Assembly: GCF_003611695.1 (NCBI RefSeq) | Contig: NZ_RAWE01000071.1 | Coordinates: 1 to 41,265, forward strand | DNA: 41,265 nt | Origin: Corallococcus carmarthensis | GTDB lineage: Bacteria > Myxococcota > Myxococcia > Myxococcales > Myxococcaceae | Direction of reading: 5' to 3' | Part shown: in pieces, positions 1 through 41,265 of the stretch | How positions within the stretch are numbered: the stretch's first letter is position 1 | Layout: every line of letters starts with the position of its first letter | The notes under the pieces: generated by a model | What the model saw: the letters and a program-made list of their open reading frames with translations, nothing else | The model's database searches: none | What the model was told of the DNA's origin: nothing | Made by a program: the position numbers and the translations under genes

Positions 1-1872
1 GTCGTCGTCCCGGCCCGCCCCGCCGTCACGCCGGTGATGGCGCCGAAGGTGACGGACGCGGAGCTGCTGGCGGTCTGGGAGAGGTGGAAGGCGGCCCGCT
101 CGCGCAACGACCGCGCGGCGGCGGAGGCGGCCCAGAAGGAGCTGCTCACGCTGCGCGAGGAGGTGCTCGCCTCCGACCTGGAACCGCTGAGCATGGGCTT
201 CGTGCGCGAGGCAGGGGTCCGCCGCCGCGCCGGGGACCTGTCGGGCGCGCTCGCGCTCCTGGACGTGGCCGTGACCCTGTCGCCGGGGCTGCCCGCCGCG
301 CGCTTCGCCCGGGCGGAGACGTACGTGGTGGAGGATCCTCTGAACGTGCCGCGCGCGGTGAGCGAATGGAAGACCGCGCTCGTGACGCTGGCGAAGGACG
401 CGCGCTACCGCAGGCCCGCGCTCACGGACCTGGGCGCGCTGGTGCTCGCGGCGTGGGCGGCCACGGCGGTGGCGGTGGTCGCGGTGCTCTTCCTGCGGCG
501 GATCCGCTACGCGCTGCATGACTTCCACCACCTGTTCCCCCGGGCGGTGACGCACTGGCAGTCGGGGCTGCTGGGGCTCCTGCTCCTGGCGCTGCCCGCG
601 GTGCTGGGCGCGGGCCTGGTGCCCGTGCTGCTGGTGCTCTTCGCCTCGGTCGCGCTGTACGTGGGCCGCGCCGAACGCTGGGTGGCCGCGGTGCTGCTCA
701 TGGGGTTGGGGGTGATGCCGCTCGCCGCTGGGACGCTGGCGCGCTTCACCGTCTTCGCCGGCACGCCCGCGGAGGACGTCTACCTGCTGGAGCGCGGCGG
801 CCTGTCCGCGGAAGGCGCGGCGGCCCGGGTGCGCGCCCGTGCGGTGGCGCGCTCCGCCCGCTTCCAGGAGCTGGGGGCCCTGGCCTTCTACGAATCGCGC
901 CGCGGCCTCCTGGAGGAGGCGAGGGCGGACTTCAAGGCCGCCTCCGCCCTGAAGGAAGGCGACGCGCGGATGCTCACGCGCTTTGGCAACGCGCTCCTGG
1001 GCCTGGGCGACGTGGACGGGGCGGTGCTCCTCTACACCCAGGCGTCCAAGGCGGATCAGTCCATGGCGGCGCCGCACTACAACCTGGGGCAGGTGTACCG
1101 GCGCCGGGCCCGGCTCCTGCCGGATGATCAGCTGGGCAAGGAGCTGGACCGTTCCACCTCCGCCATCGCCCACGCGCAGGCGCTGGATGAATCACTCCTG
1201 CGCCGCGAACCGCCGCCGGAGGACCGCCCCCTGCTCAACCTCCTGCTCCTGTCCCCGTCCGTGCCCGAGCGCGACTGGATGGACCTGGCGGATGGCACCC
1301 AGGAGGGCGCCCGCGTGGAGTCCCAGGTGAGCCGCTGGCTGTCGCCCGTCCTGCCGGCGGGGCCGGTGGGCTGGGGGTTGACCGCGGCGCTCGCGGCCCT
1401 GGTCGCCGTCTTTGGAGAAGCTTCCTGGCGCATGAATGCGTCGCGCGGCTGTGAGAAGTGCGGCCAGGCGGTGTGCCAGCGCTGCGACAAGGACCTGGGC
1501 GTGGGCAGCGCGATGTGCGGCCAGTGCGTCCACGTCTACGCGCGCAAGAGTCAGGTGCCCAAGGAGTTCCGCTCGCGCAAGCAGGGCGAGGTGGAGCGCC
1601 ACCAGGCATGGACGAAGCGGGTGACGTACGTGCTGGGAAGCCTGGTGTCCGGCGCGGGCCACGTGGGCTCGGGCCTGCCCGTGCGCGGCGCCCTCTACGC
1701 CTTCCTGTTCAGCTTCGCCGTGGCCGCGCTGGTGCTCCACCGCGGCCTCGTCCGCACCCCGTACGGGGACGCGCCGCTGTACCTCAAGCTCGTGCCCGCG
1801 GGCACGGTCCTCTTCTTCGTCTACCTGCTGACCTTGCGCGGCCTGCGCCGCCACCAGCGGGGGGAGGCCTGA
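1..1872 (+). CDS. TPR-repeat membrane protein with a six-cysteine zinc-finger-like cluster (5' partial)
   Basis: The frame is open to base 1. Internal starts at 34 (GTG) and 37 (ATG) have no ribosome binding site, and the residues before them form a Pro/Ala/Val-rich linker, so the gene probably begins upstream. Counting from base 34 (612 residues), there is a TPR-like helical stretch, hydrophobic segments around 135-155 and 180-245, a second TPR-like block around 285-360 (DARMLTRFGNALLGLGDVDGA and what follows), another hydrophobic segment near 450, then three CxxC pairs (CEKC, CQRC, CGQC) near 475-500, and two more membrane segments at the C terminus. TPRs mediate protein contacts and paired CxxC motifs usually bind zinc. 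I do not recognise a named family. The PATAN gene starts 3 bases after the stop, suggesting cotranscription. Confidence 0.8.
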   Translation, partial: VVVPARPAVTPVMAPKVTDAELLAVWERWKAARSRNDRAAAEAAQKELLTLREEVLASDLEPLSMGFVREAGVRRRAGDLSGALALLDVAVTLSPGLPAARFARAETYVVEDPLNVPRAVSEWKTALVTLAKDARYRRPALTDLGALVLAAWAATAVAVVAVLFLRRIRYALHDFHHLFPRAVTHWQSGLLGLLLLALPAVLGAGLVPVLLVLFASVALYVGRAERWVAAVLLMGLGVMPLAAGTLARFTVFAGTPAEDVYLLERGGLSAEGAAARVRARAVARSARFQELGALAFYESRRGLLEEARADFKAASALKEGDARMLTRFGNALLGLGDVDGAVLLYTQASKADQSMAAPHYNLGQVYRRRARLLPDDQLGKELDRSTSAIAHAQALDESLLRREPPPEDRPLLNLLLLSPSVPERDWMDLADGTQEGARVESQVSRWLSPVLPAGPVGWGLTAALAALVAVFGEASWRMNASRGCEKCGQAVCQRCDKDLGVGSAMCGQCVHVYARKSQVPKEFRSRKQGEVERHQAWTKRVTYVLGSLVSGAGHVGSGLPVRGALYAFLFSFAVAALVLHRGLVRTPYGDAPLYLKLVPAGTVLFFVYLLTLRGLRRHQRGEA

Positions 1873-39029: not shown

Positions 39030-39908
39030 ATGCTCAAGAGCATGACCGGATTTGGTTCGGGCCGCGCCCGCGTGGGGGACGAAGAGGTCTCCGTGGAAGC
39101 ACGCTCGCTCAACCACAAGTTCTGTGAAGTGAAGGTCCGGCTGCCGCGCGAGTTGTCCGCGCTCGAGCCCGCACTCGTGAAGCAGGTGAAGGACCGCCTC
39201 GCGCGAGGCTCGGTGGAGATCCTGGTGCGCCGGCAGTCCGCCACGGTCTCCGGCAACGTCCCCACGGTGGATGTCGGTCTGGCCCGCGAATACGCGCGCG
39301 CCTACAAGGAAGTCGCCGAGGCCCTGGGCCAGTCCACGGAGGTCGCCTGGTCGCAGGTGGTCAACCAGCCCGGTGTCATCCGCCTGGAGGAGAAGGGCGT
39401 GGACGTGGAGTCCGCCACCCAGGCCACGCAGACCGCGCTCCAGCAGGCGCTCGCGGCCCTGGAGACGATGCGGAACACCGAAGGCGAGTCCATCCACACG
39501 GACCTGGACGCCCGGATGAAGCTCATCGAGGGGTGGAGCCAGGAGGTCGCCAGTCTCGCGCCCCGCGCGGTCAGTGACTACCAGCAGCGGCTCACCGAGC
39601 GTGTCGCGGAACTCGCGCGCGGCGTCGCGGTGGATCCGCAGCGCCTGGCGCAGGAAGTCGCCCTGTTCGCCGAGCGCACGGACATCGCGGAAGAGGTGAC
39701 CCGGCTCGCGACCCACCTCGAGCAGTTCCGGCTCCTGATGGCGAGCCCCGAGCCGGTGGGCCGGCGCATGGATTTCCTCGTGCAGGAGATGCACCGCGAG
39801 GTGAACACGACGGGCTCCAAGAGCCAGCACGCGGAGATCTCCGCGCGTGTGGTCTCGATGAAGGCCGAGGTCGAGCGCATCCGCGAACAGGTGCAGAACG
39901 TCGAATGA
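39030..39908 (+). CDS. YicC family endoribonuclease-like protein
   Basis: 292 residues, normal for the family. The N terminus MLKSMTGFGSGRARVGDEEVSVEARSLN is the YicC signature, followed by LNHKFCEVKVRLPREL, and the C-terminal domain ends with GRRMDFLVQEMHREVNTTGSKS and a helix through IREQVQNVE (DUF1732). YicC proteins have been reported to act in RNA turnover, as endoribonucleases. No ribosome binding site is visible before ATG, and the predicted transcription start is almost at the ATG, so it may be translated from a leaderless mRNA. It overlaps gmk by 4 bases, a pairing common in bacteria. Confidence 0.93.
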   Translation: MLKSMTGFGSGRARVGDEEVSVEARSLNHKFCEVKVRLPRELSALEPALVKQVKDRLARGSVEILVRRQSATVSGNVPTVDVGLAREYARAYKEVAEALGQSTEVAWSQVVNQPGVIRLEEKGVDVESATQATQTALQQALAALETMRNTEGESIHTDLDARMKLIEGWSQEVASLAPRAVSDYQQRLTERVAELARGVAVDPQRLAQEVALFAERTDIAEEVTRLATHLEQFRLLMASPEPVGRRMDFLVQEMHREVNTTGSKSQHAEISARVVSMKAEVERIREQVQNVE

Positions 39909-40528
39909 ACGAACCCTCTGGACTCCAGCCTGGCCTGCTCCTCGTCCTCTCCGCTCCGTCCGGAGCCGGGAAGACCACCCTCGCGCACCGACTGCTGAAG
40001 GAGATGCCGGACGGCATCTTCTCCACCAGCGTCACCACCCGGCGCCCCCGGGGCAAGGAGCAGGAGGGCGTGGACTACCACTTCGTGGGGGTCGCAGCCT
40101 TCCAGCAGAAGATCGAACAGGGTGAGTTCGTGGAGTGGGCGGAGGTGCACGGCCACTTCTACGGCAGCCCGCAGTCCGTGGTGGACCAGGCCCGCCAGCG
40201 CCGCGGCACCGCCATCTTCGACATCGACGTTCAGGGGGGGCAGGCCATCAAGCGCAAGCACCCCGACGCGGTCCTCATCTTCGTCCTACCCCCCTCCATG
40301 GAAGAGCTGGAGCGCCGCCTCCGGGATCGCCAGACGGACGCGGATGAGACCATCCGCCGCCGGATGCTGGCCGCCCGCTCGGAGATCGAGCGGGGGATCG
40401 CGTCCTACGACTACATCGTGGTGAACGACGACTTCGAGCGCGCCTACCAGGAACTGCACTCGGTGGTGGTCGCGGAGAAGTGCCGGCGGGGGAGGGTGGA
40501 CCTCTCCAAGCTCAAGTTCGGGAGCTGA
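39905..40528 (+). CDS. gmk: Guanylate kinase
   Basis: 207 residues, standard length. ATG 39905 overlaps the yicC stop (ATGA). P-loop LSAPSGAGKTTLAHRLL, the GMP-binding stretch SVTTRRPRGKEQEGVDYHFV, EWAEVHGHFYGSP, and DIDVQGGQAIKRKHPDAV identify Gmk. It makes GDP from GMP in nucleotide metabolism. The order yicC-gmk is conserved in many bacteria and is often followed by rpoZ; here no coding gene follows within the window. Confidence 0.97.
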   Translation: MNEPSGLQPGLLLVLSAPSGAGKTTLAHRLLKEMPDGIFSTSVTTRRPRGKEQEGVDYHFVGVAAFQQKIEQGEFVEWAEVHGHFYGSPQSVVDQARQRRGTAIFDIDVQGGQAIKRKHPDAVLIFVLPPSMEELERRLRDRQTDADETIRRRMLAARSEIERGIASYDYIVVNDDFERAYQELHSVVVAEKCRRGRVDLSKLKFGS

Positions 40529-40547
40529 AAGCCGTCGGGGAATGGGT

Positions 40548-40567
40548 GGAACCGCCCCACGGGTTCC
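40548..40567 (+). terminator. Weak hairpin after gmk
   Basis: GGAACC (40548-40553) and GGTTCC (40562-40567) can pair around an 8-base loop 19 bases after the gmk stop. There is no T run, only C-rich sequence, so termination here is uncertain. Confidence 0.25.
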
Positions 40568-40712
40568 CCCTCCACGACGTCGCATCGCGCCGGCGGCCTG
40601 CATCAAATTTCTTGCGCCGCCCGATCGCCTGATGGATAAGCCGCACACCTCGCGGCGACACGCAGGCGCCACCCCGGTGGCACCTGAAGGACGCAGCGGT
40701 GGTGACGGGAAG

Positions 40713-40741
40713 TTGACATTCCCCGAACCGATTCTTAGATG
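40713..40741 (+). promoter_or_regulatory. Promoter array copy 1
   Basis: TTGACA at 40713-40718, then 17 bases, TAGATG at 40736-40741. The -35 is a full consensus match; the -10 fits the TAGAAG pattern of copies 3-5 with one change. Confidence 0.5.
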
Positions 40742-40858
40742 GTGCCGCAGCAGGACAGTGGATCAGCGGGCGTTGAAGGTGTTGGTGCGGGTCGCCGCCT
40801 CATGGGAGGCGGAGCTGATGGCGGTGGCGGTCTGGAGTCGGAAGCAGCAGCAGGGCGG

Positions 40859-40886
40859 TTGACACAGGATGCGGCGGTGGTACAAG
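40859..40886 (+). promoter_or_regulatory. Promoter array copy 2
   Basis: TTGACA at 40859-40864, 16-base spacer, TACAAG at 40881-40886, followed by CCGCGCCCC, as in copy 3. Confidence 0.55.
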
Positions 40887-40980
40887 CCGCGCCCCTCGCT
40901 TCGAAGCCCGCGCACTGGCGCGGAAGGAACTTCGGAGAGAGCGCAGCACCGAAAAGGAAATAGGGCAGTCAACGAGCGGG

Positions 40981-41010
40981 TTGACAGCGAACGCGGCGAA
41001 GAGATAGAAG
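40981..41010 (+). promoter_or_regulatory. Promoter array copy 3
   Basis: TTGACA at 40981-40986, 18-base spacer, TAGAAG at 41005-41010, then a GC-rich discriminator CCGCGCCCCC. Confidence 0.6.
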
Positions 41011-41087
41011 CCGCGCCCCCACCGAAGAAAGCAGTCCGGCAGGCAACACACGGACGGCGGGCGGTGAGGAAAGCTGACAGCGAGCGG

Positions 41088-41117
41088 TTGACAGGGAAGA
41101 CGGCGCCGAAGTAGAAG
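41088..41117 (+). promoter_or_regulatory. Promoter array copy 4
   Basis: TTGACA at 41088-41093, 18-base spacer, TAGAAG at 41112-41117, then CCGCTCCCC. A second CTGACA lies just upstream at 41074. Confidence 0.6.
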
Positions 41118-41201
41118 CCGCTCCCCTTCGAAAAGAAGCGGCGAAAGTCACTGGACGGCGCCGACGAAATTCGAAGCAGCCCGCAGGACGCAAAAGCGAA
41201 G

Positions 41202-41230
41202 TTGACGCTGACTGCGAACTGAAATAGAAG
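41202..41230 (+). promoter_or_regulatory. Promoter array copy 5, nearest the right edge
   Basis: TTGACG at 41202-41207, 17-base spacer, TAGAAG at 41225-41230, followed by CTGCAACCCC. Transcription would begin near 41237. Confidence 0.55.
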
Positions 41231-41240
41231 CTGCAACCCC

Positions 41241-41261
41241 GCCGGTTGAAACGAAACCGGC
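41241..41261 (+). promoter_or_regulatory. Small perfect hairpin at the predicted 5' end of the array transcript
   Basis: GCCGGTT (41241-41247), 7-base loop GAAACGA, AACCGGC (41255-41261). It begins about 4 bases after the predicted start of copy 5, so it would sit at the extreme 5' end of that RNA. It could be a boxB-like antitermination hairpin or a 5' stabiliser; the window ends 4 bases later. Confidence 0.5.
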
Positions 41262-41265
41262 AACG

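Follow-up and report, generated by a model that had tools for sequence, protein, structure and literature searches.

In Escherichia coli, rrn operons have two promoters each, the tandem pair P1-P2, which have GC-rich discriminators and are subject to growth control, and E. coli is not known to have CdnL. For the mycobacterial rrnA operon, PMC10218544 gives M. tuberculosis two promoters and M. chelonae five, and a mycobacterial CdnL homologue is described as an activator of rRNA promoters (PMC4182748). In Myxococcus xanthus, PMC4182748 presents P4rrnD as a sigma-A promoter that has a consensus -35, a spacer of 18 bases, and open complexes stabilised by CdnL; the name P4rrnD suggests that there are at least four promoters in this organism. 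The need for CarD at Rhodobacter rRNA promoters was traced partly to a missing last T of the -10 (-7T), a trait that the account in PMC8407463 proposes mainly for the Alphaproteobacteria. A search of titles and abstracts in the open-licence literature found none about a myxobacterial rRNA promoter array, with P4rrnD turning up in one paper (PMC4182748), and neither a comparative promoter ladder nor a deletion scar was found in the same search.

The locus analysed here is a tandem array of promoter-like modules that, judged from sequence comparison, is very probably the promoter block of an rRNA operon. The array belongs with the known multi-promoter rRNA operons, because five promoters occur in M. 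chelonae and the name P4rrnD points to at least four in M. xanthus. It resembles P4rrnD in bacterial family and, as far as PMC4182748 describes that promoter, in being a putative sigma-A-type rRNA promoter block with a consensus -35 and, in some modules, an 18-base spacer, and it resembles mycobacterial rrnA in having promoters stacked in tandem ahead of a single rRNA operon (PMC10218544). Unlike rrnA by its description, there are up to seven modules here (loose motif), and most of the internal ones are recognisable copies of one unit. Compared to the E. coli P1-P2 pair, there are 4–7 modules, mostly without T at the last -10 position. This missing -7T is shared with the CarD-needing promoters of Rhodobacter, though the trait is tied mainly to the Alphaproteobacteria in PMC8407463 and a need for CarD or CdnL at the promoters described here is putative.

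The window, meaning the whole stretch of DNA analysed, is the complete contig C499 (41,265 bases), one of the 530 contigs of a 10.8-Mb genome, and rRNA is absent from the window itself. The array follows gmk (Table 1), for which the seven best named relatives of the protein are all Corallococcus (94–97%), pointing to a Corallococcus-like species as the likely source. Past the end of gmk (40528) there are just overlapping ORFs on both strands, in line with the original prediction that the region has no convincing gene, and a protein gene in the array region was rejected. The five predicted plus-strand modules, TTGAC(A/G) and TA(G/C)A(A/T)G separated by 16–18 bases, are present at steps of 146, 122, 107, and 114 bases, with CCGC(G/T)CCCC common to modules 2–4 directly past the -10, as had been claimed. 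All five -10 boxes end in G and none in T.

Table 1. Coordinates of the promoter modules and neighbouring features in the window.
Feature	Position	Strand	Basis and description
YicC-like endoribonuclease gene	39030..39908	+	ORF and Pfam PF03755, PF08340; context gene
gmk, guanylate kinase	39905..40528	+	ORF and Pfam PF00625; upstream neighbour of the array
P1	40713..40741	+	TTGACA-17-TAGATG, then GTGCCGCAG; distal class; without CCGC directly after -10
P2	40859..40895	+	TTGACA-16-TACAAG, TG before -10, then CCGCGCCCC
P3	40981..41019	+	TTGACA-18-TAGAAG, then CCGCGCCCC
P4	41088..41126	+	TTGACA-18-TAGAAG, then CCGCTCCCC
P5	41202..41240	+	TTGACG-17-TAGAAG, then CTGCAACCCC; proximal class
7-bp hairpin GCCGGTT/AACCGGC	41241..41261	+	RNA fold; downstream of P5

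The pattern TTGAC(A/G)-16..18-TA(G/C)A(A/T)G matched five times in 40531–41265 and nowhere else in the window on either strand, and none of 5000 dinucleotide shuffles of the region reached five matches (mean, 0.001; maximum, 1). Because this pattern was derived from the array, the whole genome is the better control. A strict pattern (TTGAY-N17..22-TASAAGCYGC), which catches modules 2–5 and misses module 1, had 14 matches in the 10.8 Mb compared to one when read backwards, with 13 of the 14 in three such arrays. A looser pattern, with a spacing that omits the 18-spacer modules, had eight matches compared to three read backwards, and three of the eight fell outside the arrays and a tRNA pair, one of them within the 23S gene. 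Over 23 array stretches, 85 sense matches and one antisense match were counted. A chance origin of the array was rejected on the basis of the region shuffles, the own-genome control, and this orientation bias. An E. coli-type consensus promoter scan reported no promoters in the region, because that consensus demands the last T of the -10, which the window modules lack.

Comparison to the other arrays of the same genome, a check that had been proposed from the window, identified two sisters, C310 (98% identity to the window array across its final 399 bases) and C477 (93%), both of which are near contig ends and continue into an rRNA leader with CTCGGTCTTTGAAAACC. The last 127 bases of C310 and C477 are identical to the start of C284 (read in the rRNA direction), a contig of 5715 bases with the 16S, tRNA-Ile, tRNA-Ala, 23S, and 5S genes that holds the sole 16S match of the assembly; we take C284 as the collapsed rRNA operons, targeted by at least two and probably three arrays. 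Via this contig overlap, the array recurs upstream of other rRNA operons in the same genome, with 5, 6, and 5 modules in the three arrays. The C499 end overlaps the rRNA contig by 0 bases and stops ahead of the shared leader, and the collapse of the rRNA repeats in the assembly is the likely reason for the contig break at this point. The strict matches within the assembly face stable RNA genes in 10 of 14 cases (nine via contig overlap and one directly), and the remaining four are those of the window, which face stable RNA by synteny. The directly linked match is the single one outside of the arrays. This lone rRNA-type promoter, TTGACG...TACAAGCCGC at L107:2001-2221 (contig C504 of G000), precedes tRNA-Val(TAC) and tRNA-Asp(GTC) by some 30 bases, and a like match recurs in G016–G019, of which G017 was checked for the tRNA pair. 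An array unique to the window locus was a candidate rejected in view of the C310 and C477 arrays and of matches in genomes of the family.

Because the window holds no rRNA and its end shares no bases with the rRNA contig, the link between window and 16S is one of homology and synteny. In G017, a relative from the same genus assembled as one contig, gmk, array, leader, 16S, tRNA-Ile, tRNA-Ala, and 23S follow in order; the gmk protein is 95.7% identical to that of the window, the array behind gmk opens with the same kind of first module, and all three 16S genes are preceded by such arrays. The leader lies 102–103 bases past the P5 start in the G017 gmk operon and C310 (83–84 in two other operons), and the distance between leader and 16S is 197–201 bases. 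Based on these spacings, 16S is expected near 41500 (~235 bases past the window), and the rRNA leader box would lie at ~41304, outside the window. The originally predicted start of an rRNA operon just beyond 41265 is thus supported indirectly, by two sister arrays and the syntenic operon of a one-contig relative, and a guess made from raw sequence alone was borne out.

Across the family, the strict pattern had matches in 86 of 96 genomes, though the one or two matches of many genomes may be due to chance because they are near the control (≤3 matches backwards, one strand). Counts behind gmk were based on the 26 best myxobacterial-type loci (L023–L048) of 80, one of which is labelled Comamonas; the scan included L049–L053, which were left out of the count, and a match inside the leader of L048 was excluded. 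At least two modules were found in 22 of the 26 loci, one in three loci, and none in one (Archangium lansinium, L044), and with a looser motif two of the three single-module loci have two modules. Contigs of four of the 26 loci reach the 16S start, and array and 16S are syntenic there too. At an M. xanthus locus (L045), the proximal module behind gmk, TTGACA-18-TAGAAG, fits P4rrnD as PMC4182748 describes it, a match by description only. The record titled Comamonas sp. KCTC 72670 (L046) has a gmk 83% identical to that of the window, with a promoter array of myxobacterial type and a leader behind it, and this genome looks mislabelled or mixed.

Operons with a readable 16S were drawn from a search of 17 genomes, nine of them without a 16S match, that gave 19 matches; those of G067 and G073 were dropped as too near a contig end, and one G006 operon with the 16S start located by string was added to the remaining 17. 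Four more arrays for which 16S was unreadable stand outside of this count and are included in the sense/antisense, discriminator, and inverted-repeat statistics. Using a motif looser than the window pattern (any TA-hexamer at 15–19 bases), 4–7 modules were found before 16S in all 18 operons, which come from six genomes (G006, G007, G017, G031, G033, and G034), with four modules in three operons, five in four, six in five, and seven in six. All 18 operons have modules at 283–304, 385–417, 490–526, and 619–648 bases before 16S, and 15 of the 18 have a further one to three modules 90–135 bases apart. The related genomes and operons in these counts, as well as the distinct cores from related species considered below, are not independent samples.

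Modules differ in design along the array. In the own operons, the distal module combines a spacer of 17 bases with TAGATG, TAGACA, or TAGAGA and lacks CCGC directly after the -10, and the proximal module has a -10 of TAGAAG, TAAAAG, TACAAG, or TAAAGA. Most internal modules have a spacer either of 16 bases, with TG ahead of the -10, or of 18 bases and no TG; in a few the spacer is 17 bases. A TG at -15/-14 is present in all 26 distinct 16-spacer modules, compared to none of 10 (17-base) and none of 14 (18-base), and with the short spacer it would behave as an extended -10. The idea that the repeats are amplified, drifting copies of one unit fits the internal modules; the outermost and the innermost seem to form classes of their own, each found again at the matching position of other operons. 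For any TA-hexamer in 21 array regions, the last -10 base was G in 91, A in 14, and T in 15 of 120 boxes, and all 15 boxes with a last T sit at one module position in five genomes outside G017. In G006, G007, G031, G033, and G034, the second module before 16S (385–411 bases) has TAGGTT or TAGATT in 15 of 15 operons, and G017 has TAGAAG.

Though we consider it unlikely, if well short of negligible, that only one or two modules are active and the rest are leftovers of amplification that do little, tandem rRNA promoters elsewhere are used unequally according to PMC10218544, and the range of 4–7 modules between operons implies that no single number is essential. Against this, the discriminator is conserved (113–156 of 164 at each of nine positions) and was not asked for by the search pattern, as the -35 and -10 letters partly were, whereas most positions between modules have <0.5 bits across genera. 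Among close sister operons the inter-module DNA is also much alike, so that conservation there says little. Further against it, the distances of the four modules closest to 16S are maintained in 18 of 18 operons.

Some of the conserved sequence may act in the transcript, because the region folds as RNA better than its shuffles (z -4.5; 0/100 shuffles as good). In P3 (40981–41019) and related internal modules, the spacer carries CGCGGC and the discriminator opens with GCCGCG, an inverted repeat that leaves the -10 in the loop. The stems of 16-spacer cores (57 distinct) had a mean of 5.46 compared to 4.31 when spacers were shuffled (0/300 reached), and those in 18-spacer cores (47) a mean of 4.79 compared to 4.28 (1/300 reached); both are above composition. 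These features, fold and inverted repeat, would suit a reading in which the repeats are mainly leader elements (RNA hairpins for processing or antitermination) or regulator sites and only the proximal module is a promoter. That reading is quite improbable, as the 17-spacer cores (40, including distal and proximal modules) have no stem excess (3.05 compared to 2.87; 61/300), dealing the discriminators anew barely lowers the stem (5.26 for 16-spacer cores, 0/300 reaching the observed value; 4.76 for 18-spacer cores, 130/300), TG is confined to modules with the short spacer, and a similar unit occurs singly, outside any array, ahead of tRNA genes. Covariation in the inverted repeat is thin, with one variant core pairing AAGG with CCTT and another having only a 3-base stem. 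Least probable is that the array at this single locus serves something other than an rRNA operon, a view that the lack of both a 16S in the window and an overlap at the contig end would allow, but against which stand the synteny with 16S-bearing operons behind gmk (G017 and the four loci reaching 16S) and the near identity to the C310 array.

A promoter block upstream of an rRNA operon is the preferred reading. In arrays of this kind, promoters apparently come and go through recombination between copies. Upstream of its switch point, the first strict module of C477 is 88% identical to module 1 of C310 over 60 bases (50% to module 2), and downstream it is 95% identical to module 2 over 60 bases (25% to module 1), with the switch occurring at a shared GCCGCGCCCC. 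Such a mosaic is what the deletion of one unit by inter-module recombination would leave. One G017 operon apparently has the short form of C477, so that a deletion of this type may be old. Conversely, G018 has one module twice in succession, identical over 34 matched bases and 108 bases apart, which looks like the gain of a unit.

The regulation of the array can be outlined in terms of CdnL and starvation. The block would serve one rRNA operon, out of three or more in a Corallococcus-like myxobacterium, with five tandem primary-sigma promoters, 107–146 bases apart, predicted to fire toward a 16S-Ile-Ala-23S-5S operon. Each module combines a good -35 with a -10 without the final T, and three of the five have a GC-rich CCGC(G/T)CCCC discriminator. 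Alone, each promoter may form an open complex that is short-lived and dependent on CdnL, and (p)ppGpp and DksA would readily shut it off in starving cells; the stacking of several promoters would raise peak output during growth. We infer CdnL-dependent, starvation-sensitive promoters because of the papers on P4rrnD and CarD, the final G of the -10 boxes, and the presence in the genome of PF02559 proteins and a DksA-like gene. The PF02559 family proteins have 176, 346, and 1211 aa and, named by size, are presumably of the CdnL, CarD, and Mfd types; the best DksA-like match scored 106 bits, under the family cut-off of 115.5. By analogy, -10 boxes without a final T would fit the action of CdnL at P4rrnD as published in PMC4182748. 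As to the GC-rich discriminator of stringently controlled rRNA promoters, CCGC(G/T)CCCC is found in P2–P4 (3 of 5) and P1 and P5 differ, and the array may be under stringent control. This regulatory part (CdnL need, starvation shut-off, and benefit of stacking) stands at about even chances of being right.

As a tentative extension, which we consider somewhat less likely than not, rRNA output in the Myxococcaceae may be set in each operon by how many units its evolving promoter ladder holds. Distal and proximal promoters, each of its own class, would flank internal units that recombination via the shared promoter core adds or deletes; these units would be of two designs (16-base spacer with TG and 18-base spacer without) and mostly without the final -10 T, the whole ladder thus answering to CdnL. 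The ladders of the family are a natural series, with 4 to 7 promoter-like modules per operon both within and between genomes, and such a series allows tests of whether promoter number tunes rRNA operons and whether open-complex factors, CdnL among them, act alike on all units.
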